Shown here piece after piece: positions 26,915 to 42,117 of a stretch of 64,000 nucleotides of DNA. The notes below the pieces were generated by a model. It did not search any database. It was given only the letters and a program-made list of their open reading frames with translations, and was not told the DNA's origin. Both the position numbers and the translations under genes were made by a program. The DNA is from Prosthecobacter sp. GTDB taxonomy: Bacteria > Verrucomicrobiota > Verrucomicrobiia > Verrucomicrobiales > Verrucomicrobiaceae. The stretch's first letter is position 1; each line of letters begins with the position of its first letter. Location: positions 1-64,000 of the forward strand of contig NZ_JACSRD010000112.1 of NCBI RefSeq assembly GCF_014879935.1, given 5' to 3'.

Positions 26915-29900
26915 TCAATACCCGAGCCAAGGGCCGAGCCAGCGTTCCATCTCCTCGACGCTCATGCCTTTGCGTTTGGCGTAGTCTTCGACTTGGTCTT
27001 TGCCGAGGACGCTGATGCCGAAGTAGTGGGACTCGGGGTGGGCGAAGTAGAGGCCGCTGACGGCGCTGCCGGGGTGCATGGCCATGCTTTCGGTGAGTTC
27101 GACGCCGGTTTTGGCGGTGGCGTCGAGCAACGCGAAGAGGATGGGCTTCTCGGTGTGGTCGGGCTGCGCGGGATAACCGGGCGCGGGGCGGATGCCGCGG
27201 TAGTTTTCCTTGATGAGATCGGCGTTGGCGATGTCGCCGGGCTTTTCGTAGCCCCAGGCGAAGCGGGCTTGCTGATGCAGATACTCGGCGAAGGCCTCGG
27301 CGAGTCGGTCGGCGACGGCTTTGGTCAAAATGCCGTGGTAGGGATCGTGCGCGGCATCAAACTCCTTCGCGAGCTCATCGGCACCGTGAATGCCGACGCA
27401 GAAGCCGCCGATGTGGTCGGTGCGGCCGCTGGATTTCGGCGCGACGTAGTCGCTGAGCGCGAAGTTGGCCTTGTCCTTCTTGATGACTTGCTGGCGCAGC
27501 GTGTGGAAGGTTGTTTTGAGCTTCCCGCCTTCATAGACTTCGATGTCGTCGCCGACGCTGTTGGCGGGGAAGAGGCCAAAGACGCCTTTCGCGGTGAAAC
27601 GCTTCTCCGCGATAATGCGGTCGAGGAGTGTGTTGGCGTCGTTGTAGAGCTTCAAAGCCTCTGCTTCGGCTTTGAGCTTCATTTCGGCATCTTCATGCGC
27701 GGAGGAGAAACGGCCTTCATTCGCGATCCAGCGTCCGCGCAGCTCCCACGAGTGGAAGAAGGGCGACCAGTCGATGAACTCGCGCAGCGTGGCGATCAGG
27801 TCCGCGCCTTCATACACCTTCGTGCCGGTGAAGCTCGGCGTGGCGATGTCCTGCGTGCTCCAGTCGAATTTTTGGCCCTTCTCGCGTGATTCGTCGAGGC
27901 TGAGGAGCTGGCGGTCCTTCTTCTTGCCATATTCCTCGCGGAGGCGGGCGTGGCGTTCTTCGTTGGATTTGATGAAGCCTTCGCGTTGATCGTCGGAGAG
28001 CAGCGAAGTGGTCACCGGCACGCTGCGGGAGGCATCGAGCACATGCACGATGGGTCCGCTGTATTTCGGCGCGATCTTGATGGCGGTGTGCGCGGGGCTG
28101 GTGGTGGCGCCGCCGATCAAAAGCGGCTGCTTGAAGCCGAGTCGCTCCATTTCCGCCGCGACGTGCACCATTTCATCGAGCGACGGCGTGATGAGGCCGC
28201 TGAGGCCGATGACATCGGCGCCGACTTCGACAGCTTTGTCGAGAATCTTCTGGCATGGCACCATGACGCCCATGTCGGTGACTTCGAAGCCATTGCAGGC
28301 CAAAACGATGCCGACAATGTTTTTGCCGATGTCATGCACATCGCCCTTCACGGTGGCGAGGACGATTTTGCCACCACCCTGCTTCGCCGCCTCGGCAGGG
28401 ATCAAATCAGCGGCGGTCAGGCCGCCAGAGCCGCCTGCATTTCCTTGAACCGAGCCTGAGTGAGCTCGAACGCCCGGATATCCTCCTCCAACCTCGTCTG
28501 GTAGTCGATGACCGCCTGCGCCTGTTGCTCCTGTGTCATGGCTTGCGCCTGCGCCAGTTGCTCCATCTGATGATGCTGTCTGCACGCCTCCACGAGACCG
28601 TGAGCCTCCAGCTCCCTCAGCCAAGCTTTGCGCAGTGAGAGCATCGGAGCCTGCTCGCTGAGGCTGCGTCGTACCTGCTTCAACTCGTCGCTGGAGAAAC
28701 CCTTCGAGGATTTCACGACGGTAGAGGTCGGGGCGGCTTGAAGCGTCGAAGTGTTCATGGAGATAAGATTCACCGGTTTGCAGCAGGTTTTCAATAGATT
28801 TGTGAAGATGGTCCAGAAGCCAGTCCTGATCGCGTAGGGTTGGCGATCCGAACACGCTGTTATCGATGATGATCAGCTCAAAAAGAGGGTTGTTCTCATT
28901 TTCGGAAGCCAGGTGAAGAGTGGTTCGCGCAGCCTGAAAATGTCCGCCAGCAGCACGTCGCAGAGGCACGATGCGGCCACCTTCCTCGACGGAGCGCCTG
29001 ACCATGTTGGCGACAGCCTGCCGCCAGGGACAGTAAACAAACCTGACTTGCAGATGAATGCCTGACTCCAGGGCGCACTGGATATGAATCCGGCTGCGGC
29101 TCAGATTCTGCAAGGTTCCATCCATGACAAGAATGGCATCATCATCAGAGAAGGATCGCGTGGCCGTCGTCTTCCCGCTGCCCTGGCCTCCGGCATTGAA
29201 AACGATCACATCGCCCAGTTTGGCGGCGCTCACGATCTTTTCGAACATCCAGTCCACAAACGCACCCGCAGGCTCCAGCGTGGCGACGCTCCACTTTTGG
29301 CGGCTTTCGCGGGTGGCGGCGTAGTCGGGGCTGAGTTCCTGGACGTTGTTGCGGTCGAGGACGTTGGCAAAGCGGCGCTTGTACTCGGTGGCGGCAGATT
29401 CGAGGTCAGCAGCGAGCTCGGCGGCGAATTTCACCTCGATGCGGCGCTCTTCGAGGCTGAGGCCGGGATAGGGCGTGTACGTGAAGCCTTCGACGGCAGT
29501 CACGTCACGGTCGCTTTCGAGTGCCTTCACGGTCTTCTCCGCGATCTCGATGAGCAGCTCGCGTTCGCGGGCCTTGCGGGCTTTTTCGGCCTCCATGTAG
29601 GGCTGCAAATACGCGACGCTCTGCTTCATCACGCGGGCGCTTTTCACGACCTGCGGCAGGAACATCTTCCCAGCGCCGAAGAGGTCACCGACGACGCTCA
29701 TGCCGTCCATGAGCGGGCCTTCGATGACGGAGAGCGGTTTGCCGAGCTTCGCGAGTGCTTCGGCGGTGTCTTCGTTGATGAAATCGGTGATGCCTTTGAG
29801 CAACGCGTGCTCGAGTCGCTTCTCGACGCTCTCATTGCGCCAGCTGAGATCGACTTCGGTCTTCTTCGCGCTACCGGCCTGGCCTTTGAACTGCTCGGCG

Positions 29901-31879
29901 TAATCGACGAGCACCTCGGTGGCGGTGGCGTTGCGGTTGAGGATGACGTCCTCGACCTTCACGAGCATCTCCGGCGGGATTTCCTCGTAAACTTCGAGCA
30001 TGCCGGCATTAACGATGCCCATGTCCATGCCTGCTTTGATCGCGTGATACAAAAACACGCTGTGCATGGCTTCGCGCACCTTGTTGTTGCCGCGGAAGCT
30101 GAAGCTGATGTTGCTCACGCCGCCGCTGACCTTCGCGTAAGGCAGGTTTTCTTTGATCCAGCGCGTCGCGTTGATGAAATCGAGCGCGTAGTTGTTGTGC
30201 TCCTCGATGCCGGTTGCGACGGTGAGGATGTTTGGATCGAAAATGATGTCCTCGGGCGGGAAACCGACCTCATCGACGAGGATACGATACGCTCGCTCGC
30301 AGATGCGGATCTTGTCTTCGTAAGTCGCGGCCTGGCCTTGCTCGTCGAAGGCCATCACCACCGTGGCGGCGCCGTATTGTTTGATCTTCGTGGCGTATTC
30401 CTTGAACTTCGCCTCGCCTTCCTTCAGCGAGATGGAGTTCACGATGCCTTTGCCCTGCAGGCACTTCAGACCGGCCTCGATGATCTCCCACTTCGAGGAA
30501 TCGACCATGATCGGCACCTTGTTCACCTCCGGCTCGGTTTGCAGGAGGATCAAAAACTTCGTCATCATCGGCACGCCGTCGATGAGACCCTCATCCATGC
30601 AGACGTCGATGACGTTCGCGCCGCTCTCGACCTGCTGACGCGCGATGGCGACGGCCTCCTCGAGTTTGTTTTCCTTGATGAGCTTCGCGAATTTCGGCGA
30701 GCCGGCCACGTTCGTGCGCTCGCCGATCATGAGGTAGTTCGAGCCGGGGCTCAGCACATACGGCTGCGAGCCGCTGAGTCGCATCGTGTGCGGATCGGCG
30801 GGGATTTCGCGCGGCGCGAGTTTTTCGACGGCCTTCGCGATTGCGGCGATGTGCTCGGGCGTGTTGCCGCAGCAGCCGCCCATGATGTTCACGAAGCCGC
30901 TGCTGGCGAAGTCGGTGGCGTAACCGGCCATGTCCGGCGGCAGCAAATCGAAGCCGGTGGGCGCGAGCGGGTTCGGCATGCCGGCGTTCGGGTAGCACGA
31001 GACGAAGCAATCCGCCTTCGCCGCGAGCTCCGCGAGGAAGGGACGCATCTTGTCCGGGCCGAGCGAGCAGTTCAGGCCGATCGACAGCGGCTTCACATGC
31101 CGCATGGCATTCAAATAGGCCTCCGTGACCTGCCCGGAGATCATCGTCTCGCCACCGGGGCCGACGGCGGCGCTGATCTGCACCGGCAGCTCCAGTTTGT
31201 CCTCTTCAAAGACCTCGCGGATCGCCACGAGCGCTGTCTTCGCATTCAACGAATCGAAAATCGTCTCGACGAGCAGCGTATCGACGCCACCAGCGATCAA
31301 CGCACGCACCTGATGCTTATACGCCTGCTTCACCTGATCGAAGGTGACGTAGCGGAAGCTCAAATCGCTCAAGTCCGGGAACTGCGACAGCGACACCGTG
31401 AGCGGTCCGATCGCTCCCGCGACGTAGCGCTTCCGTCCCGTCTGCTCAGCCACGATGTCGGCCCATTTGCGGCACTGGCGAGCGGACTCGAAATTGATCT
31501 CCCACGCGAGATCATTCAGAAACGTGTCCTCGATGATGCCCTGGAAGAATTCCGGGTTCTTCTTCCCTTCGCGGAAGAATTCCGCCTGCGCGATGCTCGT
31601 CGCCGAAAACGTGTTCGTCTCGATGATGTCCGCACCCGCTTCGAGGAAGCGCTTGTGGATGTCCTCAATGATGTCCGGGCGAGTGATCGAGAGGATGTCG
31701 CCGTTGTTCAGGATGTCCTTCTCGTTGTCGCGGAAGCGCTCACCGCGAGCGGAGGCCTCATCGAGCACGCCCTTGGCCTTATACTGCCGGATCGTCGTCC
31801 CCATCGCGCCATCGATCACGAGGATGCGCTGACGCAGGGCGGCTTCGAGTTCAGGGCGGCAGTTGGGACGGGCAGGCAT
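26915..31879 (-). CDS. metH: Cobalamin-dependent methionine synthase, interrupted in frame by a 390-codon insert
   Basis: MetH methylates homocysteine using methyl-tetrahydrofolate and B12. Modules in order: homocysteine-binding ([11 protein letters not shown]; zinc Cys in NCSLGPD and [10 protein letters not shown]), pterin-binding ([13 protein letters not shown]), cap ([20 protein letters not shown]), then the insert from about residue 767 to 1154, then the B12 domain ([14 protein letters not shown] with the Co-ligand His) and the activation domain ([13 protein letters not shown]). Without the insert it would be about 1266 aa, near E. coli MetH (1227). The insert falls in the linker between cap and B12 domain and keeps frame, so a full-length 1654-aa product is possible. 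The reading frame is open throughout. Confidence 0.93.
28417..28758 (-). CDS. Small helical protein overlapping the metH frame (possible antitoxin or cassette partner)
   Basis: The ATG at 28758 opens a 113-aa frame, offset from metH. From about residue 20 it reads as a well-formed alpha-helical protein ([40 protein letters not shown]). In the same stretch the metH frame is Gly/Ser/Ala-rich and unlike any domain. This argues that the small frame is the real gene here. It starts inside the zeta-like domain, as in coupled two-gene modules. Antitoxin function is a guess from context; no family recognised. Confidence 0.6.
28682..29503 (-). CDS. Zeta-toxin-like P-loop kinase domain embedded in MetH
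   Basis: Key segments are [20 protein letters not shown], the Walker A loop [12 protein letters not shown] (about residues 897-908 of the fusion), [12 protein letters not shown] and [11 protein letters not shown], resembling zeta/PezT-like kinases that phosphorylate UDP-N-acetylglucosamine. The substrate here is unknown. A GTG at 29503 ([16 protein letters not shown]) could start a free protein, but it lacks a convincing ribosome site. There is no stop at the domain's end; the frame runs on through antisense-like sequence into the MetH B12 domain. The end coordinate marks only the end of recognisable sequence. Confidence 0.55.
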
Positions 31880-31984: not shown

Positions 31985-32006
31985 TCAGTAACCATTCAGT
32001 TACTGA
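31985..32006. promoter_or_regulatory. TAAC-N6-GTTAC element, site 1 (upstream of response regulator)
   Basis: TCAGTAAC-CATTCA-GTTACTGA is a perfect inverted repeat with 8-bp arms, ending 72 nt before the response regulator ATG. Copies of its core stand before three further genes to the right. It is the most symmetrical of the four, as expected for autoregulation. Confidence 0.6.
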
Positions 32007-32077
32007 TTTTCCCTTATCGGCCGCCAGCGGAGACTGCTAGGCTCCAGCCATCTGCCGCACAGCCTCCCATTTAGCCC

Positions 32078-32755
32078 ATGAACATCCTTGTTGTTGAAGA
32101 CGAGCCGGATCTTGCCCGCCACATCGCGGGTGCGCTGACGCGCAGCGGTCATTCGACAGAAGTTCGGCACGATGGTCAGGAAGCCCTGGAGACGGCGCTG
32201 AACCGCCGTCCGGACCTCATCGTGCTGGATGTGAACCTGCCCACGATGGACGGTTTCACCGTGCTTTCGCGGCTGAGACAGTCCCAGTCATCCTCCCGGG
32301 TGATCATGCTGACCTCACACGGCGATGTGGAAAGCCGTCTGCGTGGCCTGAATGGTGGTGCGGACGACTATCTGGCGAAGCCTTTCTCCATGGATGAACT
32401 GGTGGCGCGGGTGAATGTGCTCGGGCGCCGTGGCGGCACGATCGCCGAGGGAGACGTGATCAAGGCGGGCGATGTGGTCATGGACGTGCCAAAGCGCAAA
32501 GTGACGCGGAAGGGCGAGAAGATCGAACTCTCGCCGCGTGAGTTCGAGGTGCTGCAAATCCTTATGAAGGAGCCGGCGCGCGTCTTTTCCCGCAATGACA
32601 TCTGCGAGCGCATCTGGCAGCGCGAGCACCAGTATGACACCCGCACGGTGGAGATCTTCATCATGCGGCTGCGCAAGAAGCTGGAGCTCGACGACGGGGC
32701 GAATTTGATTCGCACCGTGCGCGGCGCGGGCTACCAGATGGCCGTGACCGAATGA
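32078..32755 (+). CDS. OmpR/PhoB-family response regulator
   Basis: The receiver domain has EDEPD, phospho-acceptor D51 in LIVLDVNLPTMDG, T79 region VIMLTS and K in DDYLAKPFS. The winged-helix output domain has LSPREFEVLQILMKE and RTVEIFIMRLRKKLELDDGA. 225 aa. It overlaps the kinase start (ATGA), so the two are co-translated. The divergent inverted repeat upstream suggests self-control. Confidence 0.95.
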   Translation: MNILVVEDEPDLARHIAGALTRSGHSTEVRHDGQEALETALNRRPDLIVLDVNLPTMDGFTVLSRLRQSQSSSRVIMLTSHGDVESRLRGLNGGADDYLAKPFSMDELVARVNVLGRRGGTIAEGDVIKAGDVVMDVPKRKVTRKGEKIELSPREFEVLQILMKEPARVFSRNDICERIWQREHQYDTRTVEIFIMRLRKKLELDDGANLIRTVRGAGYQMAVTE

Positions 32756-34098
32756 GACGGTGGCCGCTCAAGATCAAAACCGGCGCCTACGCGGCGCTGC
32801 TGACCATGCTGACGCTCATGGTCACTGCAGTGTTCTTTTTCACCATCCTCTACCACCGCCAGCGCAAGGAGGTGGATGACGAGCTTCTCGACAATGCGGA
32901 CGAACTGGTGCGTGACCTGCGCAATTTCCGCGGCGCCCCGGTGAACCCGCGGCACCCGCTCAGCGCGAAGTTTGTGCCCCTGGATCTGCGTGAGCACCAC
33001 CTGATGCTGATGGGACCCGAAGGGCAGCTTTTGTATCACTCACCGAATCTGCAGGGCGCCAGCATCGAGGGGCCGCCAGGGTTCCGCACCGTGACGGTGG
33101 CTGGGCAGGCGTGCCGTGCAGGCAGCTTCAAGATGGGTGACTTCACCGTGCATGTGGCGATGAGCCTCGCGCCGCTGGAGGCCTTTCATGCGGATCTGCG
33201 TTTTGGACTGCTGATGACGCTGCCCCTCATCGGCGTGATGGTCTTTGCCGGCGGTTTGTGGCTCGGAAATCGTGCCGTGGCACCCTTGGCGGCGCTTTCC
33301 TCGGCTGCAGAGGCCATTTCGGTCGAAAACCTCTCCGAGCGCCTGCCGACACCGCCTGCGGACGACGAGATCGCGCGGCTCACCGTGGTGCTGAACAGCG
33401 CGTTTGACCGCATGCGTGCCGCCTACACCTCCGCGGCACGGTTTTCGGCCGACGCCTCGCACCAGCTCAAAACGCCGGTGGCGGTGATGCGGGCGGGGTT
33501 GGAGTCGCTGCGTGACTCGCCTGAAATCGGCTCCGCCGCACGCGAGGAACTCGACGGCCTGCTGCGTCAGGTGCGGCGGCTCACGGGGCTGATTCAGGAC
33601 CTGCTGCTGCTGGCAGGCACAGACGCGAGGCGGCTGCGTTTGGAGAGCCAGCCCTTCGATTTGAGCGATCTGGCCGCTGAGGCGCTCGACGACCTCAGTG
33701 TGCTGGCTCATGACCGCCTGGAGGTGGAGAGTGCTCTCACGCCCGGGCTCACCGTGTGCGCGGATCGCCGCCACGTGGCAATGGTTTCGCAGAACCTGGT
33801 CGAAAACGCGGCCAAATACACCCCGGAAGGCGGGCGGGTGCGCATCACGACGAAACGGGAGGGCAATGTGGCGCATCTGTCGGTGGCGAACACCGGTCCT
33901 GCACTTCCCGAAGCGGATCGCGAAGGCATCTTCGAGCGTTTCCGCCGCGGTTCCCAAGTCGGCGAAGGTCAAACCGGTCACGGTCTGGGCCTGAACATCG
34001 CCCGTGAACTCGCCCGAGCCCACGGCGGTGACTTGGAGCTGGTGCGCAGCGATGGCGAGTGGACGGAGTTTGCCCTGACGCTGCCGGTGGGTGTGTGA
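32752..34098 (+). CDS. Sensor histidine kinase with HAMP domain
   Basis: Two membrane segments (about residues 9-31 and 150-172) flank a periplasmic loop of about 120 aa. HAMP follows, then HisKA with FSADASHQLKTPVAV (phospho-His), the N box SQNLVENAAKY and the G box GHGLGLNIAREL. 448 aa. The signal sensed is unknown; the loop is small and without a recognised domain. Downstream it converges on the 488-aa gene with a 24-bp gap. Confidence 0.94.
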   Translation: MRRWPLKIKTGAYAALLTMLTLMVTAVFFFTILYHRQRKEVDDELLDNADELVRDLRNFRGAPVNPRHPLSAKFVPLDLREHHLMLMGPEGQLLYHSPNLQGASIEGPPGFRTVTVAGQACRAGSFKMGDFTVHVAMSLAPLEAFHADLRFGLLMTLPLIGVMVFAGGLWLGNRAVAPLAALSSAAEAISVENLSERLPTPPADDEIARLTVVLNSAFDRMRAAYTSAARFSADASHQLKTPVAVMRAGLESLRDSPEIGSAAREELDGLLRQVRRLTGLIQDLLLLAGTDARRLRLESQPFDLSDLAAEALDDLSVLAHDRLEVESALTPGLTVCADRRHVAMVSQNLVENAAKYTPEGGRVRITTKREGNVAHLSVANTGPALPEADREGIFERFRRGSQVGEGQTGHGLGLNIARELARAHGGDLELVRSDGEWTEFALTLPVGV

Positions 34099-34122
34099 TG
34101 CGGCCAGAATTGGCGTACCCGG

Positions 34123-35589
34123 CTACCTCGCCACGATCGGGCGATACTGCTCGATGGTCAGACGTTGCTGCGTGGAGTTGGAAAAGGTGGACCAGTTGGT
34201 GGCGAGCCAGTCTTGGGCGGACTGGTCATCGGTTTTGCGCCAGGCACGGTAGTAGCGGGCGAGAGCGTCGTCACGGCCGCGCGAGGTGGAGAGCTGGTTG
34301 GCAAGAACGAGCGAGGCACCAATGTCGGACGACGCGAGCATGTCAGCGAGGCTCAGACGAGCCTGATCCATGGAGGGCGCGACCGGGTTGGCGTCCACCC
34401 ATTGACGGAGGCCGATGGGATCGGTGGCAGCCCAGGAATTGTAGGCTCCGGCGTATCCTTCCGTGGCGAGTTCCCTCGGCTGGGAGTCGAGCCAAGCCAG
34501 CGCCTTGTCCGGCTCCATGGCCCCCCACATGGTGCCGATGTGCGTGATGGCCTGGCGGCGCACACTCGCATCGGCCAGCGAAGTGCTCCACGAGGTGGCG
34601 GCCTCGATGTCGCTGGCAGCCCAGACGGTGGCGAGCGTGGCGGCGGCTTCGTCCCGGCCCGGCCCTGCCGGAAGGGTGCGAATCCAGTCCGCAGTCGCGG
34701 CCGGATCGGTGGTTCCCCAAATATCGGCGATGGCCGCCGCCAGCGCGGCGCCGTCCGGCTGGGAGACGGCCTCGGCATAGTGCTCAGCGGCTTCCTGCGG
34801 GTGCTGCAGGGACCATTGACTGGCGACGGAAACCTCCGCAGTGCGTCTTGCGTCGGCGTTGGTCAAAGAAGCGGCCCAGTTTGCAGCAGCGAGGGCGTTT
34901 TGTTCGGCCCAAGTGGTGGCCGTGGCGGCAATGAGAGGCTGGGAGAGATATCCGGTGGAGCTGAGCCACTGGGCAGCAGCGGCCGGCGTGCGGCGCGTCC
35001 AGCCGATCATCACATCGGTGAGCGCCTGGTCTTTGAGAGGACCGCTGAGATTCTCATCCGCCCACATCCACGCGGCGCGGGCGTCCCGCGCCGCCCACTT
35101 GTTCACGGCGATGCCGATGGACTCCGAGCGCATGGTGCCGGCATGGAGCGAGGTGCGGGCGTAATCGAGGGCGGCGATGGGATCCGTGTCGCTCCAGACA
35201 GAGTAGATGCCGCGCAGGTAGTCGAGCTTGTCCTGCTCGGAGGAAATCGTCTGCATGACCTGCAGCGCCGTGGCAGGATCCTGCCGCGCAGCTTCGGCAC
35301 CCGCGTCACGGAGCATCGCTGAACGCTCCTGGGGATCGACCTCCTGCATGGCCGAGGACAGCGAGGGAGCACCGGCCTTGCCCTCGCCGGAAGACCCGCC
35401 GGGCGCGGGTGTCGTGAGCGCTTGCCCGCGATCCGGCGAACCTCCTGGCACCGCATCGCGGTGCTGGGATCGCAGGTCGGTGTCGCTCATCATGGGAGAG
35501 AGCAGCACCGTCACTCCAGCCCCTGCCGCGGCGCCAATGGCGACGAGCAGGGCGTTCGCCAAAAGCGAGCCGTTGCGGAGTGAGAACAT
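34123..35589 (-). CDS. Exported helical repeat protein (Trp/Ala-rich repeats)
   Basis: An N-terminal signal/anchor segment (NALLVAIGAAAGAGVTVLLS) precedes about 400 residues of 30-35-aa helical repeats with recurring W-A-x-x-D-P or W-A-x-x-N/D motifs (KWAARDARAAWMWA; TWAEQNALAAANWA; IWGTTDPAATADWI; SWAATDPIGLRQWV). This resembles verrucomicrobial Sel1- or TPR-like repeat proteins of unknown function. Its start is divergent from the 899-aa gene, with a TAAC-N6-GTTAC element between them. 488 aa. Confidence 0.7.
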   Translation of the reverse strand: MFSLRNGSLLANALLVAIGAAAGAGVTVLLSPMMSDTDLRSQHRDAVPGGSPDRGQALTTPAPGGSSGEGKAGAPSLSSAMQEVDPQERSAMLRDAGAEAARQDPATALQVMQTISSEQDKLDYLRGIYSVWSDTDPIAALDYARTSLHAGTMRSESIGIAVNKWAARDARAAWMWADENLSGPLKDQALTDVMIGWTRRTPAAAAQWLSSTGYLSQPLIAATATTWAEQNALAAANWAASLTNADARRTAEVSVASQWSLQHPQEAAEHYAEAVSQPDGAALAAAIADIWGTTDPAATADWIRTLPAGPGRDEAAATLATVWAASDIEAATSWSTSLADASVRRQAITHIGTMWGAMEPDKALAWLDSQPRELATEGYAGAYNSWAATDPIGLRQWVDANPVAPSMDQARLSLADMLASSDIGASLVLANQLSTSRGRDDALARYYRAWRKTDDQSAQDWLATNWSTFSNSTQQRLTIEQYRPIVAR

Positions 35590-35640
35590 ATTTCGACCCT
35601 TAAGAGACCATTTTCCCGTTCCATGGGCAATCTGGATTTG

Positions 35641-35660
35641 GTAACTGAACAGTTACTGTT
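35641..35660. promoter_or_regulatory. TAAC-N6-GTTAC element, site 2 (divergent region)
   Basis: GTAAC-TGAACA-GTTAC followed by TGTT, 52 nt upstream of the leftward 488-aa gene and 48 nt upstream of the rightward 899-aa gene. AACAGT-T-ACTGTT also forms a nested palindrome. It could serve either or both promoters. Confidence 0.6.
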
Positions 35661-35704
35661 CGAACTTGGCATCGAAAGATGCGTACTGATAAATTCCACG
35701 TCCT

Positions 35705-38404
35705 GTGAGCCTTTTTGCCCGTGTGTTACTCGTCTGCGCCAGCCTGACGGCGGGGGCGGCGCGTGCCTCAGTGTCGTATGAGGTGCTCTCCAGCTTCCAA
35801 AAACCCGGCACCCAGGTCGTCGCCCCGCTGATGCAGCATTCAGACGGTAATTTCTACGGCGTGGCCTCGACCAATGGGGCGTTTCGCCTCGGAACCGTGT
35901 TCAAACTGACGCCAGCGGGAGCGCTGACCACGCTTCACTCCTTCAGCGGCACGGACGGCTCCGGACCATCGGCGGGACTGGTCGAGGGGGCGGATCAGGC
36001 GCTCTACGGCACCACTTCCAGCGGCGGCACTCACGGGTTTGGCGTGGTTTTCAAGATCACCAGCGGAGGCGTGTTCACAAAGCTGGTCGATTTCACCGGT
36101 AGCGCAGGGTCAGCCCCTGGATCGGTCCCCCATGGGCTGATGCGGCATGGAAACGACCTTTTTTACGGCGTGACGCAGGGCGGTGGGGCGAATGGCTTCG
36201 GCACCGTGTTTCAAATGACGCCCGGAGGCGTGCTGACGACGCTGCGTGACTTCACAGGAAGCAGCGGGGCCGCTCCTGGAGCCGAAGCGCAGGGCCCGCT
36301 GGTGGCTTCAGGCAACCTTCTTTACGGCATGACGAAGCTGGGCGGTGCCACAGGACAGGGCGTGCTCTTCGAAGTGAGCACTGCGGGGGTGTATCGCTCC
36401 CTGGGGGAGTTTTCCGGCACCGCAGGCACACGCGCGGGTGCCAATCCGTCGGGTGGACTCATGCTCAACACGGACGGCGCTTTGTACGGTGTCACCGAAT
36501 ACGGCGGCACGAACAGCTTCGGCGTGGCCTTCAAGATCACCACCGCGGCCTCGCCAGTTTACACCGTGCTGCGTCACTTTGCCGACGCTTCCGGCTCACA
36601 GCCGGTCGGCCCCCTGGCGCGGGGCAGCGACGGGCAGCTTTATGGCGCGACGGCCAACGGCGGTGTGAGCGCCCGTGGCACGCTGTTCAAGATCACCACC
36701 ACAGGCACTCACACGCTGCTGGCGAATTTCACGGGCGAAACCGGTGGCGCCTTGGGTTCCGCACCGCGCGCCGGACCATGCCTCGCGACGGATGGCTTGT
36801 TCTACCTGCTCACCAGCGCGGGCTCGACGGGGAACATGGGCTCGTTTTGCAAGATCAGCAGCGCGGGAGTCTTCACCGCAGTTTCGTCGCTGTCGCTCGG
36901 CGCAGGCTGGATGCCCAGCGGCATGCCTGTGGCATCGGGAAGCGGGGCACTCCTCTTTCCGATGGCTGCGGGCGGCACCGCTGGCGGCGGAAATGTTTCC
37001 AGCGTCAGCACTGCGGGCACGGTGAGCCCGCTCGCGGCGCTCGGTGGCACGCTGGGCACCTATGCGGATGGCGGCCTGAGTGCGGTCAGCGGCAGTTTTT
37101 ATGGTGTGACGGCCCGTGGCGGTGCTTCCGCTCGTGGCACGCTTTACCGCTACACGCCCGGCACAGGCACCGCTCTGGTTCTCGCCTACACCACGTCTGC
37201 GGGCTCCCTGGGTGAAGGATCGCTCACGCTCGGCGCGGATGGCTTGCTTTACGGGATAGGGCGTGAAGGCGGCGCATCGAGCCGCGGTTCGATCTATAAA
37301 GTGACGACGGCAGGTGTGCGCACGCGCCTCATTTCCTTCACGGGAACCGCCGGAGCGGCCCCGGGCGGGCGACCTTGCGGTCCGCTCGTGCTCGCAGGCG
37401 ATGGAAACTTCTACGGCATGACGGAGGAAGGCGGCACCGCCAATGTGGGCGTCGTTTTTCGCCTGACACCCGCAGGCGCGTATTCGGCGCTGCATCATTT
37501 CACGGCCGTCGGACCGCGTTCGCCTCAAGGCGGCTTCGTCATTGGCAACGACGGCCAGCTTTACGGCACCACCAGTGCTGGAGGAACGGACGATGCGGGC
37601 ACGCTGATCCGCTTCCTGCCCTCCTCGGGCCTCGTGCAAGTCCTGGGCGAGTTCTCCGGCATCGGAGGAGCCACACCGGGCGCGATTCCGATGGGTGAGC
37701 TGACAGTGGCCTCGAATGGCTCCATCTACGGCATGACCGCCGCCGGTGGAAACGCCGATGAAGGAACCGTGTGGCGCTACTCAACCTCAGGCGGCCTGGA
37801 AACGCTGCTATCCTTCACGGGGCAGGCGGGCGCCGCGCCTGGCTCCGCAGCAGACACCGACGGGGCGGGACTCATTCTCACGGGCGGGCTGGCCTTCGGC
37901 TCAGACGGCCAGCTTTACGGTGTCTCGGCCGGTGGTGGTCCGGAGGGCGGCGGCGTGGTGTTTCGTCTTCAGTTCAGTTCACCTCTTCAGGACTGGAAAC
38001 TGGCCCTGCTGGGCGATCCCAACGCTCCCGATGCCGGGGACGCAGATGCCGACGGTCTCGCGAACCTGCTCGAATACATCTTCGACACCTCACCGGTGGC
38101 TCCACAGACCTCTTCAGCGATGGACTCCGGCCTCAGCAGCTACCCTGACGGAGATTTCCTGACCGTCATCGTGCCCCGCGACCCTGCCCGGTCTGACGTG
38201 ACCATCATTGTGGAGGCTTCGGACACGCTCGCCCCGGGTTCATGGACGACTTTGGCCACCAGCACCCTGGGTGGCGTCTTCACCGGCCCCGGCTACTACG
38301 ATGGTGATTCCGCCTCCCCGGGCGTGAAGCAGGTCATCATTCGTGATGTGCAGCCTGTTGCCACTTCCCCCCGGCGTTTTGTGCGCGTGCGGGTCACCCG
38401 ATGA
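35705..38404 (+). CDS. Secreted GloVer-repeat (gloeo/verruco) protein
   Basis: A GTG start gives a signal peptide (LFARVLLVCASLTAGAARAS). About a dozen copies of a 55-65-aa unit follow, with the pattern D/N-G-x-L/F-Y-G-x-T-x-x-G-G...G-x-x-F-K-I/L-T (e.g. LYGTTSSGGTHGFGVVFKIT), the TIGR03803-type beta-propeller-like repeat. The C-terminus carries a DADADGLANLLEYIFDTSP segment, common at the end of exported verrucomicrobial proteins, then a beta domain. Surface or extracellular role inferred; function unknown. Confidence 0.88.
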   Translation: MSLFARVLLVCASLTAGAARASVSYEVLSSFQKPGTQVVAPLMQHSDGNFYGVASTNGAFRLGTVFKLTPAGALTTLHSFSGTDGSGPSAGLVEGADQALYGTTSSGGTHGFGVVFKITSGGVFTKLVDFTGSAGSAPGSVPHGLMRHGNDLFYGVTQGGGANGFGTVFQMTPGGVLTTLRDFTGSSGAAPGAEAQGPLVASGNLLYGMTKLGGATGQGVLFEVSTAGVYRSLGEFSGTAGTRAGANPSGGLMLNTDGALYGVTEYGGTNSFGVAFKITTAASPVYTVLRHFADASGSQPVGPLARGSDGQLYGATANGGVSARGTLFKITTTGTHTLLANFTGETGGALGSAPRAGPCLATDGLFYLLTSAGSTGNMGSFCKISSAGVFTAVSSLSLGAGWMPSGMPVASGSGALLFPMAAGGTAGGGNVSSVSTAGTVSPLAALGGTLGTYADGGLSAVSGSFYGVTARGGASARGTLYRYTPGTGTALVLAYTTSAGSLGEGSLTLGADGLLYGIGREGGASSRGSIYKVTTAGVRTRLISFTGTAGAAPGGRPCGPLVLAGDGNFYGMTEEGGTANVGVVFRLTPAGAYSALHHFTAVGPRSPQGGFVIGNDGQLYGTTSAGGTDDAGTLIRFLPSSGLVQVLGEFSGIGGATPGAIPMGELTVASNGSIYGMTAAGGNADEGTVWRYSTSGGLETLLSFTGQAGAAPGSAADTDGAGLILTGGLAFGSDGQLYGVSAGGGPEGGGVVFRLQFSSPLQDWKLALLGDPNAPDAGDADADGLANLLEYIFDTSPVAPQTSSAMDSGLSSYPDGDFLTVIVPRDPARSDVTIIVEASDTLAPGSWTTLATSTLGGVFTGPGYYDGDSASPGVKQVIIRDVQPVATSPRRFVRVRVTR

Positions 38405-38421
38405 TGCTGCGTGCCACCTCC

Positions 38422-38441
38422 TAACCAAACCGTTACTGTTG
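38422..38441. promoter_or_regulatory. TAAC-N6-GTTAC element, site 3
   Basis: CTAAC-CAAACC-GTTAC then TGTTGCCCCATTGT, ending 75 nt before the ATG at 38512. Sites 3 and 4 also share TCCTAACCA in front and CATTGT at identical spacing behind. Confidence 0.6.
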
Positions 38442-38511
38442 CCCCATTGTTCCCAGCCCGCTTTCCATTCACCATGGCCGCCGAGCGCACCACCCCTACC
38501 CTGAACCTCTC

Positions 38512-39936
38512 ATGAAACGCCTACGCCCAGATTTTCTGCCGCTGCTGGTCGCCGCGCTCGTTGTGCTCGCCCTTCACCCGGCCTCCGCGGCCTACTGGAA
38601 CGGCCACAAATCGCTCCGCGACCTCGACGGCGACGGCATCCCGAACGTCGTCGATCCCGACATCGACAACGACGGCATCCCGAACGCGCTCGACAAGAAC
38701 ATCGACGGCGGCATCGCCAAGACCGGACCCTTTGCCGGCAAATACATCGGTGACCATATCGACAACGACAATCCCGAGGAGGAGGACGCCGACGATGACG
38801 GCCTCGCCGACGACTCGCTCGCCGAAAAGGACATCGATGGCGATGGCAAATTCGACGACGACCCGCTGGAGGACGACATCGATGGCGACGGCCGCAAGGA
38901 TGACTCTGCCGCCGAGCACGACATCGACGGCGACGGTCGCGACGACGATTCTCCCGAAGAGGACGACATCGACGGCGACGGTCTTGATGATGACGATGAC
39001 CTCGAAGACGACATCGATGGTGACAACAAAAAGGACGACGTGGACGACGACATCGACGGCGATGGCAAGGCCAACGACGACAGCACCGAGCACGACACCG
39101 ACGGAGATGGCATCGCCAACGATGATCCAGCCGACAAGGATGACGATGGCGACGGAGTTTCCGATCGTCATGACGATGACGACAACAACGACGGCGTGAA
39201 GGACATCGACGACCCGAATCACCATCCCGAGGACGGCGAGCAGGAGCTGCAAAACGACCTTTCCCGCGTCGCAGCACCGGGAGGCAGCTCCGCCCGTGTG
39301 ACGCTGAAATACCTCGCCACCGGAGCAGGCAGCTTCGTTATGGATGTGCGTGATGCCGCTGCAGGCAGTTATGACCTCGTGGTGGGCGGCGTGGTGCGCG
39401 GCACCGTCGTCGTCGAGCAGCAGAGCAGCAAGACGCGCGGCACGCTGACCTTCAAGACAACCACTTCTGGCAGCGGCAGCCTTCTTTTGGACTTCCCCGT
39501 CGCCGAGCAGCTCGTCGAAATTCGTCAGGCGGCCACGGTTTACTACTCCGGCACCGTTCCCGCCCTGCCACCTCCTTCTGGAGACGACGAGGTCGGGGAG
39601 GCCAGTGTGACACTCGCCCGCGGCCAGGGCGTGCCTGCCGATGCTGAGTCGAAAGCAGTCATGGAATTCGACACCACGGGTGCGATCCAGATCGAACTCG
39701 AGGTGACCAAGCTGCCCATCGGCGACTACGACGTGTCCATCGGTGAAAGTGTGCGTGGCACGATGTCGGTCGCCGCAGGCTCCAATGGCACGCTCGGTGT
39801 GCTGAAGTTCACCAAGCAAGGTGACGCAGGCACGATCCTCATGAACTTCCCCGTCGCGGGCCAGACCATCTCCATCACGCAAGGCGGCACCACTTTCTTC
39901 ACAGGACAGCTTCCTTCCGCCCCGACGCCTCCGTAA
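38512..39936 (+). CDS. Secreted acidic Ca-binding-like repeat protein (DIDGDG repeats)
   Basis: A signal peptide (PDFLPLLVAALVVLALHPAS) is followed by about 200 residues of DIDGDGxxDDxxxED repeats (residues 40-240), an extreme form of TSP3-like calcium-binding repeats. Two copies of a 90-100-aa beta domain close the protein: one starts ARVTLKYLATGAGSFVMDV, the other ASVTLARGQGVP, each with a Y-D-L/V-x-V/I-G and a LDFPVAEQ/MNFPVAGQ pattern. 474 aa. Probably on the cell surface, stabilised by calcium. A site-3 element stands 75 nt upstream. Confidence 0.82.
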   Translation: MKRLRPDFLPLLVAALVVLALHPASAAYWNGHKSLRDLDGDGIPNVVDPDIDNDGIPNALDKNIDGGIAKTGPFAGKYIGDHIDNDNPEEEDADDDGLADDSLAEKDIDGDGKFDDDPLEDDIDGDGRKDDSAAEHDIDGDGRDDDSPEEDDIDGDGLDDDDDLEDDIDGDNKKDDVDDDIDGDGKANDDSTEHDTDGDGIANDDPADKDDDGDGVSDRHDDDDNNDGVKDIDDPNHHPEDGEQELQNDLSRVAAPGGSSARVTLKYLATGAGSFVMDVRDAAAGSYDLVVGGVVRGTVVVEQQSSKTRGTLTFKTTTSGSGSLLLDFPVAEQLVEIRQAATVYYSGTVPALPPPSGDDEVGEASVTLARGQGVPADAESKAVMEFDTTGAIQIELEVTKLPIGDYDVSIGESVRGTMSVAAGSNGTLGVLKFTKQGDAGTILMNFPVAGQTISITQGGTTFFTGQLPSAPTPP

Positions 39937-40165
39937 GGCACACCGGCAGCGCATTGATCTCAGGCCATAGAATCAGGCCGCTCATCCGCAAGGGTGGGCG
40001 GCCTGTGTGTTTGGTGCGGCAGCAAAGTGGCCACTCGCTCCGCGAGATGAGCGCAGAGCCCTCGCAAGCACTCACCTCATCGCGTGAGTGTGCGTTGTTC
40101 ATGCTTGAGCGGGCCTCGTGAAACCAATCCCACGCTAAAGCGTGAACAACGTGCTCATCACTTCC
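39937..40165. other. Gene-free gap with stem-loops
   Basis: The 340-bp gap between the acidic repeat protein and the next gene holds a stem-loop AGGCCGC...GCGGCCT (39975-40004), followed by GTGTGTTTGG, which may end the upstream transcript. Also seen are smaller inverted repeats such as CTCGCTCCGCGAG and an ACGCTAAAGCGTGA stretch, and the site-4 element near its right end. No ORF with coding character was seen. Confidence 0.5.
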
Positions 40166-40185
40166 TAACCACACTGTTACGGTGC
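40166..40185. promoter_or_regulatory. TAAC-N6-GTTAC element, site 4
   Basis: CTAAC-CACACT-GTTAC then GGTGCCCGCATTGT, ending 97 nt before the ATG at 40277. See site 3 for the extended similarity. Confidence 0.6.
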
Positions 40186-40276
40186 CCGCATTGTGAGATC
40201 ACACACCGCAAGAGACAGTGCATCACGCTCAAGAAATGAACGATTGCCAGTCAGAAAACCAAATCAACACAACGCC

Positions 40277-41410
40277 ATGAACCTGCACTCACCGCTTCTC
40301 TCGCCTGTGCGCCCCGCCTGGGCCCGCAATGGTCTCCTACCGATCATCGCCGCCTTCAGCCTTCATTCCCTCGAAGCACAGACGAGCTACACCGCCGTCG
40401 ATCTCACACCGACCGCCTCCGGCTCCGCGCAAACCGCGAGCGGTGGTCAGGCCGCGGGTTACACCGGCAGCACGCCGAATGCCTTCAGCGGTCGTGCCAC
40501 GCTCTGGACGGGTGATGGAGCCATCGATCTGCATCCCGCCTTTCTGGATGGCGCGGGCGCTCGCTCCCAGGTGAACGGTTTCGCCGGCAATCTGCAGGTC
40601 GGCATCGGTGCAGGCACCTCCACCGGCAATCGCAACGTGCCGATCGCGTGGAGTGACAGCGCCGCATCCGCCACGCTGCTCAGCATTCCCTTCGTGAATG
40701 CCGGCGGCCAGGCCAATGCCACCGACGGCATTCAGATCGTCGGCTCCGCCATCGGTTACGACCGCGATGGCACCACGCTCGGCAGCGCCCACGCCCTCAT
40801 CTGGAATGTCGCCACCGGCAGCGTGATCGACATCGGCATCGATGCCTCGCTCAACGATGTGGCCGGCGGCATGCAGGTCGGCACCATCAGCAAAGGTATC
40901 GCGAACGCCGCCTTCTGGCGCGGAACGAACAAAGCGACCTCTCTGCACCCGAAGACCGCCGTCGTCTCCGTCGCCAACGGCACGGACGGCGTGCGCCAGG
41001 TCGGTTACGCGGGTTTTGACATCCGCGTCCGCCGCGAGGCTGTGAACGGCAACAAAGATCGCCGCTTCAACTATGCCCACGTCTGGACCGGCACTGCCGC
41101 CAGCGCCTTGAACATCCATCCGTATGCCTCGACGGCCGATGGGAAGCTCCTCGACCACAGCTACGCGCTGAAGGTGAAAGGCCAGTACATCGTCGGTTAT
41201 GCCAACGTCGCCACCGGCACCACCACCATCGGCCTCGCCCGCGCCATCGTGTGGGATTCGAACTACCAGGCCACCGATTTGCAGGCCTTTGTGCCCGCCG
41301 AGTTCATCAGCTCCGTCGCCTACGGTGTGGATGAAAGCGGCTGTGTCGCCGGTGTCATGACCAAGGCCGACGGCACCCGCCACGCCGTCCTCTGGGTGCC
41401 GAATCCGTGA
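40277..41410 (+). CDS. Secreted repeat protein, HAF/beta-propeller-like
   Basis: The ATG at 40277 gives a long signal region ending LEAQTSYTAVDL. The body (377 aa in total) shows repeated motifs of the type ASGGQAAGYTGS, VNGFAGNLQVGIGAG, DVAGGMQVGTISKG and GVRQVGYAGFD, with intervening AxLWxG strands, like HAF-repeat extracellular proteins. No catalytic motif. The upstream part of the open frame (from 40193) is not expected to be translated. A strong terminator follows. Confidence 0.72.
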   Translation: MNLHSPLLSPVRPAWARNGLLPIIAAFSLHSLEAQTSYTAVDLTPTASGSAQTASGGQAAGYTGSTPNAFSGRATLWTGDGAIDLHPAFLDGAGARSQVNGFAGNLQVGIGAGTSTGNRNVPIAWSDSAASATLLSIPFVNAGGQANATDGIQIVGSAIGYDRDGTTLGSAHALIWNVATGSVIDIGIDASLNDVAGGMQVGTISKGIANAAFWRGTNKATSLHPKTAVVSVANGTDGVRQVGYAGFDIRVRREAVNGNKDRRFNYAHVWTGTAASALNIHPYASTADGKLLDHSYALKVKGQYIVGYANVATGTTTIGLARAIVWDSNYQATDLQAFVPAEFISSVAYGVDESGCVAGVMTKADGTRHAVLWVPNP

Positions 41411-41517: not shown

Positions 41518-42117
41518 ATGCCCGCCAAACGCAAGAGCAGCATCCCCGAATCCAGCCCCGAGGCCATCAATGAGAACCTCGGCAAGCGCGTGAAGAAACT
41601 CCGCGCGGATCGAGGCTGGTCGCTCGAAGAACTCGCCAATGCCAGCGGCGTGAGCCGCAGCATGCTCAGCGAAATCGAGCGTGAGAAGGCGAACCCCACG
41701 CTCACCGTCACCTTCCGCATCGCGCGGGCCTTTGGGCTCACTTTGCAGGAACTGATCGAGAGCGCGGAGGCCAGCGCTTCGAAGATTCAGGTCATCCGCG
41801 CCAATGATCGCGCTCAGGTGTATCGCAGCGACAAACAGTGCGAGATCCGCACGCTTTCGCCGCTGAATTTGGAGAAGGATGTCGAGTTCTACGAGCTCAC
41901 ACTGAAGCCGGGCGGTGCCTTGCGCAGCCAGCCGCACTTTGAGGGCACGCGTGAGTTCCTCACCGTCGAAGAAGGCAGCGTCCGCATCGAATCCGGCGAA
42001 GACCACGACGACCTCACCAAAGGCGACAGCGGCACCTACCGCGCCGATGTCCCCCACGCCATCGTCAACACCGCCAAAGGAGCTGCGGTGGTGTTTCTGG
42101 TCGTGATTTACCGCTGA
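41518..42117 (+). CDS. XRE-family regulator with C-terminal cupin
   Basis: HTH at residues 22-75 (KRVKKLRADRGWSLEELANA, SGVSRSMLSEIEREKANPT). The cupin domain at 110-195 has LTLKPGGALRSQPHFEGTRE and a second strand set around YRADVPHAIVN. 199 aa, the usual architecture of single-cupin regulators that bind small ligands. It stands alone, so the target is not evident. Confidence 0.9.
   Translation: MPAKRKSSIPESSPEAINENLGKRVKKLRADRGWSLEELANASGVSRSMLSEIEREKANPTLTVTFRIARAFGLTLQELIESAEASASKIQVIRANDRAQVYRSDKQCEIRTLSPLNLEKDVEFYELTLKPGGALRSQPHFEGTREFLTVEEGSVRIESGEDHDDLTKGDSGTYRADVPHAIVNTAKGAAVVFLVVIYR

Follow-up and report, generated by a model that had tools for sequence, protein, structure and literature searches.

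A close described counterpart of the element considered here is the GlnR box of Streptomyces venezuelae, GTnAC-n6-GTnAC, which is bound by an OmpR-family protein and also by MtrA, and in whose 22-nt consensus conservation is stronger in the second repeat (PMC10704036). We analysed a 64,000-nt stretch of Prosthecobacter sp. DNA (contig NZ_JACSRD010000112.1, positions 1 to 64,000), hereafter the window, in which four copies of the element TAAC-N6-GTTAC precede the genes of a two-component system, namely a PhoB/OmpR-type response regulator (RR) and a sensor histidine kinase (HK), and genes for exported repeat proteins. Going beyond the initial annotation of this DNA, we find that the box has the half-site (GTNAC), 6-bp spacer and 11-bp period of the actinobacterial GlnR box, with an OmpR-family winged helix as the binder proposed here; since the GlnR box is bound by an OmpR-family protein, a winged helix of this type is known to read this half-site and spacing. 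The stricter half is the second repeat in the GlnR consensus and the promoter-proximal half here. Unlike the GlnR system, ours has an inverted GTAAC/GTTAC pair, putative targets that are local exported proteins rather than nitrogen genes, a cognate kinase and a home in the Verrucomicrobiota; the likeness is one of the box alone and implies no membership of the GlnR family. We consider it highly probable that the four elements are binding sites through which the adjacent RR would activate a small local regulon, and the secreted proteins encoded beside the RR-HK pair are very probably under its control. Small local regulons governed by autoregulated OmpR-type two-component systems, as this sequence suggests here, are a known kind of arrangement, and a search of open-licence papers turned up no published binding motif or regulon of any Verrucomicrobiota two-component system.

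Scanning for TAAC-N6-GTTAC (full palindromic form GTAAC-N6-GTTAC) placed the element at 31989, 35642, 38422 and 40166, each position as given in the initial annotation, and nowhere else in the window; 0.03 sites were expected, and none of 100 shuffles matched the observed count. Sites 1 and 2 are complete palindromes, with minus-strand matches at 31988 and 35641, and in sites 3 and 4 the first G is replaced by C. All four do lie in gaps between genes, the overlapping open reading frames being only antisense or chance, and the box ends lie 48-96 nt from the start codons, against the 48-97 nt annotated. Box 1 (GTAACCATTCAGTTAC, 31988..32003, plus strand) ends 74 nt before the RR start at 32078, in the promoter of the RR-HK operon, for which autoregulation is proposed. 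Box 2 (GTAACTGAACAGTTAC, 35641..35656, serving both directions) is common to two divergent promoters, 48 nt from the start of the GloVer-repeat gene (35705) and 52 nt from that of a helical-repeat gene (35589). Box 3 (CTAACCAAACCGTTAC, 38421..38436, plus strand) ends 75 nt before the DIDGDG-repeat gene (38512), and box 4 (CTAACCACACTGTTAC, 40165..40180, plus strand) ends 96 nt before the ATG at 40277 of a HAF-like gene; a GTG at 40193, 12 nt from box 4, precedes the predicted transcription start. In the host genome (7.74 Mb, 286 contigs) there are six distinct sites, four of which fall within this 8.2 kb. The reversed control pattern is commoner there than the motif (10 and 14 matches), and the motif is therefore rare. 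When a -35-like TT was demanded at the conserved distance, five host sites remained, four of them here, and the reversed control gave none. The genome-wide search thus found the motif nearly missing outside this cluster. The fifth candidate (G000:C118:19534-19549, or L085 7535-7550) lies 47 bp upstream of a gene for a 143-residue sigma70 region-2 protein, but the -35 that fits it best belongs to the opposite strand, and as the only further candidate it led us to reject a large regulon in the host genome.

The RR (32078..32755, plus strand) consists of a Response_reg receiver (PF00072, 107 bits) and a C-terminal winged helix, Trans_reg_C (PF00486, 86.5 bits), an architecture common to PhoB, MtrA and CopR/CzcR-type regulators. 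Its best NCBIfam scores all fall under the family cut-offs (PhoB 210.6 against 296.2, MtrA 197.3 against 300, cztR_silR_copR 196.6 against 279.2), so that it is not an ortholog of any of these; the nearest solved structures are PrrA and MtrA. The HK gene (32752..34098, plus strand) overlaps the RR gene downstream and encodes a periplasmic PDC/PAS-like sensor (residues ~34-151) between two transmembrane helices, followed by HAMP, HisKA and HATPase_c, making it the cognate kinase in the same operon. In the predicted structure (mean pLDDT 84) the sensor is modelled as a PDC/PAS-like domain of ~115 residues, resembling in predicted fold the periplasmic sensors of CusS (Z 8.8), PhoQ (Z 8.5) and CpxA (Z 6.7), at 10-15% identity and with Z values that support a fold class and no ligand.

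A second extension of the initial annotation is the fixed distance between the box and a sigma70-type promoter. When 63 non-redundant sites were aligned on the box, T occurred at +26 in 59 (p 1.6e-32) and at +27 in 42, A at +50 in 29 and T at +54 in 38. This profile puts the -35 element 9-10 bp past the box and the -10 element after a 17-bp spacer, and hence the box just upstream of the -35, with a calculated centre near -54, a position that would suit an activator contacting polymerase from upstream. In the window, box 1 is followed by a -35-like TTATCG at ~32014 and, ~18 bp beyond, a weak -10 TAGGCT; box 2 has a -35 on each strand, TTGGCA (with -10 TAAATT) for the GloVer gene and ATTGCC on the minus strand for the helical-repeat gene; box 3 is followed by TTGTTC and a weak -10; and box 4 by TTGTGA and, after a 17-bp spacer, GACAGT. 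The ~25 bp that sites 3 and 4 were annotated as sharing proved to be the box plus the -35 region, a stretch that recurs at the orthologous sites of L007. A sigma54 promoter at box 2 (TTGGCAT...TGC) was rejected, as by inspection its GG-GC spacing is 11 instead of 10 and the -35/-10 profile fits sigma70. The same geometry bears on the strongest alternative, in which the same RR acts at the same boxes by repression, or by activation at some promoters and repression at others. OmpR-family regulators are able to both activate and repress, and box 2 lies between two divergent promoters, but the box keeps a fixed distance upstream of the -35 and overlaps neither -35, -10 nor start, and the weak -35 and -10 elements of the window are those expected of activated promoters. 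We therefore regard repression, at all or some of the promoters, as unlikely.

Conservation was examined in 79 loci (1.2 Mb) collected from genome contigs by kinase homology. The kinase search in close relatives at E 1e-60 returned almost nothing, and because the system is patchy within the host genus the orthologs were taken from other genera. In what we term lineage A (Verrucomicrobiaceae and Opitutaceae), nine loci (L005, L007, L008, L009, L014, L018, L019, L020 and L026) keep the order RR, HK, helical-repeat, GloVer, most lineage A loci also carry the DIDGDG gene, and L033 keeps RR, HK, GloVer and DIDGDG; the five-gene cassette is thus conserved between families, and by their sequences the relatives of the three target proteins are true orthologs. 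Boxes occur in varying combinations ahead of the RR, in the gap between the helical-repeat and GloVer genes, and ahead of the DIDGDG gene. Box 2 is kept in 10 orthologous gaps, box 3 in L007, L018 and L083, and box 4 in L007, and a relaxed box is found in 18 of 56 orthologous RR promoters against a permuted control mean of 0.15. Conservation in relatives, which the initial annotation had put forward as a check, accordingly extends to orthologous gaps in other families. Lineage B, mostly Opitutaceae with RRs 54-63% identical, has an operon of RR, a 210-residue exported protein, a 590-residue kinase and a 400-440-residue protein, followed by a box and then by genes for an exported Ig protein, a DUF3570 protein, a HAF-repeat protein, a GSDH/plastocyanin protein or others. 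L184, from the family of the window, has the lineage B operon with a box directly before a 62% ortholog of the window's HAF-like protein, and as judged from this arrangement it joins the two lineages. In a third branch (L029, L031 and L042; Chthoniobacterales, Spartobacteria) the boxes are flanked by AAAG...CTTT, and L029 also has several GTGAC variants around two adjacent RR-HK pairs. Beyond what had been annotated, then, the targets in distant relatives are still of one kind, exported repeat proteins, while the individual genes change.

The recognition helix of the RR, YDTRTVEIFIMRLRKK, is almost identical across box-bearing lineages A and B. A variant, K-LVEVF, accompanies the AAAG/CTTT-flanked boxes of the Chthoniobacterales, and L002, L003 and L036-L038, which have related yet differing helices, have no box. 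Among loci with the same helix class as the window but lacking an exact box, some are contig edges and others have degenerate boxes of the YAAC-N6-GTTAC type; in L004, L005, L010 and L024 the left half is degenerate (CAAC) with GTTAC intact, and the promoter-proximal half is therefore the stricter one.

The full palindrome occurs 53 times in 44 of the 79 loci, where spacers of 0-5 and 7-18 give 0-2 occurrences and other permutations of the half-sites average 0.7. As kinase homology had decided which loci entered this count, two additional tests drew on genomes chosen in other ways. In 37 related genomes the palindromes were counted before the RR was sought, and besides the host only G021, G022, G026 and G036 proved to carry an RR ortholog (at least 57%). 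G022 has a single box ~3.7 kb from the RR, whereas G026 has two, lying 65 and 350 bp upstream of its RR, and G036 has a pair lying 2.5 and 5.6 kb downstream of its RR. The fragmented G021 (52% complete) has a box in the gap between the helical-repeat and GloVer genes and a second TAAC-N6-GTTAC ahead of the DIDGDG gene, and its RR gene, found on a different, short contig, also has a box in front. In an even sample of 289 genomes from the phylum, 8 other genomes carry the RR, and 11 boxes lie in the 162 kb around it (permuted control mean 0.017), with at least one box at 7 of 10 loci. The initial annotation had named a motif equally frequent elsewhere as grounds for abandoning its reading; instead, the motif follows the presence of the RR across genomes. 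In G049, the genome of L020 (loci L118-L137), there are 22 GTAAC-N6-GTTAC sites against 3 for the control, mostly GTAACC..GGTTAC, near genes for DnaK, glycosidase-like, metallophosphoesterase-like and other proteins. The kind of target seen in the window did not recur among these varied genes. G049 may have a greatly expanded regulon, or a different regulator with a similar box.

As the 22 sites of G049 precede unrelated genes, a similar sequence may serve a different protein in that genome, and this lends something to a second alternative, in which the boxes bind another factor, such as the XRE-cupin regulator encoded at 41518 or an unlinked one, whose targets would simply include the two-component genes. 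The XRE gene does end the cassette both here and in G021 (83% identical, L083). Within the neighbourhood ranges displayed, however, no XRE homolog was seen near the two-component system in other box-bearing lineages, and the boxes accompany the RR gene across families even where all other neighbours differ, which makes this alternative quite improbable and leaves the RR as the favoured binder. That the boxes are chance palindromes, a mobile repeat duplicated in one cluster or RNA hairpins is hardly credible despite the ~25 bp common to sites 3 and 4, given the shuffle, spacing and permutation controls and the conservation at orthologous gaps across families, and the hairpin is not the conserved feature because the half-site letters themselves are kept rather than being swapped for other complementary pairs.

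Several points nevertheless weigh against activation by the RR. The support for binding and regulation comes from sequence, and both direct binding by the RR and activation rather than repression are what we infer from it. The association between helix class and box presence is modest (Fisher p 0.016) and confounded by relatedness, and 17 of 47 loci of the same helix class are without an exact box. The -10 elements are weak at boxes 1, 3 and 4, and the predicted GloVer transcript begins ~3 nt ahead of the assigned GTG (window 35641-35705). GloVer orthologs show an equally short distance, and the GloVer mRNA may be leaderless or its start codon misassigned.

The symmetry of the box, an inverted repeat unlike the direct repeats of textbook members of the family, is a further difficulty, since OmpR-family regulators usually bind two half-sites as direct repeats. 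Across the 79 loci the inverted arrangement outnumbers the direct one by 53 to 4, and the spacer with its flanks correlates at 0.41 with its own reverse complement and at 0.08 with an 11-bp shift. The period is that of the family, with half-sites 11 bp, or one helical turn, apart and N6 alone enriched. The inverted-repeat preference is unusual for the OmpR family and does not in itself prove head-to-head binding, and because GTWAC is itself quasi-palindromic the facing of the subunits is not settled by sequence alone.

We propose the following model as the one that best fits these observations. A periplasmic signal would be received by the PDC/PAS-like sensor of the HK, leading to phosphorylation of the RR. 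An RR dimer would then occupy GTAAC-N6-GTTAC, a box whose half-sites are one helical turn (11 bp) apart and which is followed, 9-10 bp further on, by a weak sigma70 -35. From box 1 the RR would activate its own operon, from box 2 the divergent helical-repeat and GloVer genes, from box 3 the DIDGDG gene and from box 4 the HAF-like gene.

Four putative target proteins would come under this control. The helical-repeat protein (34123..35589, minus strand), exported or membrane-anchored and rich in alanine and tryptophan, matched no Pfam or NCBIfam model; its orthologs, 41-87% identical across families, adjoin the orthologous two-component system. The 899-residue GloVer-repeat protein (35705..38404, plus strand) has a signal-peptide-like start and is a clear member of its family (TIGR03803, 529 bits against a cut-off of 44, in 13 stretches), with orthologs 38-86% identical; it is predicted to form beta-propellers (mean pLDDT 79) with Foldseek matches to the BT4663 sensor propellers and the Photorhabdus PLL lectins. 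The acidic DIDGDG-repeat protein (38512..39936, plus strand) is exported and probably binds calcium, and its orthologs are 39-85% identical with conserved N- and C-terminal domains. The exported HAF-like protein (40277..41410, plus strand) scores 16.6 bits with TIGR02913, under the cut-off of 22.65, and is thus only HAF-like. Regulators of the GloVer or HAF families were looked for among open-licence papers and none were found.

Next to the cassette lies a cobalamin-dependent methionine synthase of 1654 residues (window 26915-31879, minus strand) with complete domains. Its B12-binding_2 cap is separated from the B12-binding domain by ~400 extra residues that include a P-loop, and residues 917-992 give a Zeta_toxin-like match (28.1 bits, cut-off 22.3). 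The segment is an in-frame kinase-like insertion or an assembly join, unusual either way.

More tentatively, and as a possibility rather than an expectation, we suggest that an RR family spread across the phylum (Verrucomicrobiaceae, Opitutaceae and Chthoniobacterales) and reading a palindromic rather than tandem box switches swappable sets of exported proteins as a portable surface-remodelling module. If so, what is switched would be large, locally encoded exported proteins (beta-propeller, calcium-binding, Ig and HAF). The cis-element, the RR and the kind of target do stay together across the phylum while the individual genes change. Very large exported repeat proteins are numerous in the Verrucomicrobiota. 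As the box is recognisable by sequence and the RR travels with it, the two would give a direct means of studying the timing of GloVer, DIDGDG, HAF-like and Ig protein production, and would allow regulon membership to be predicted in other genomes.

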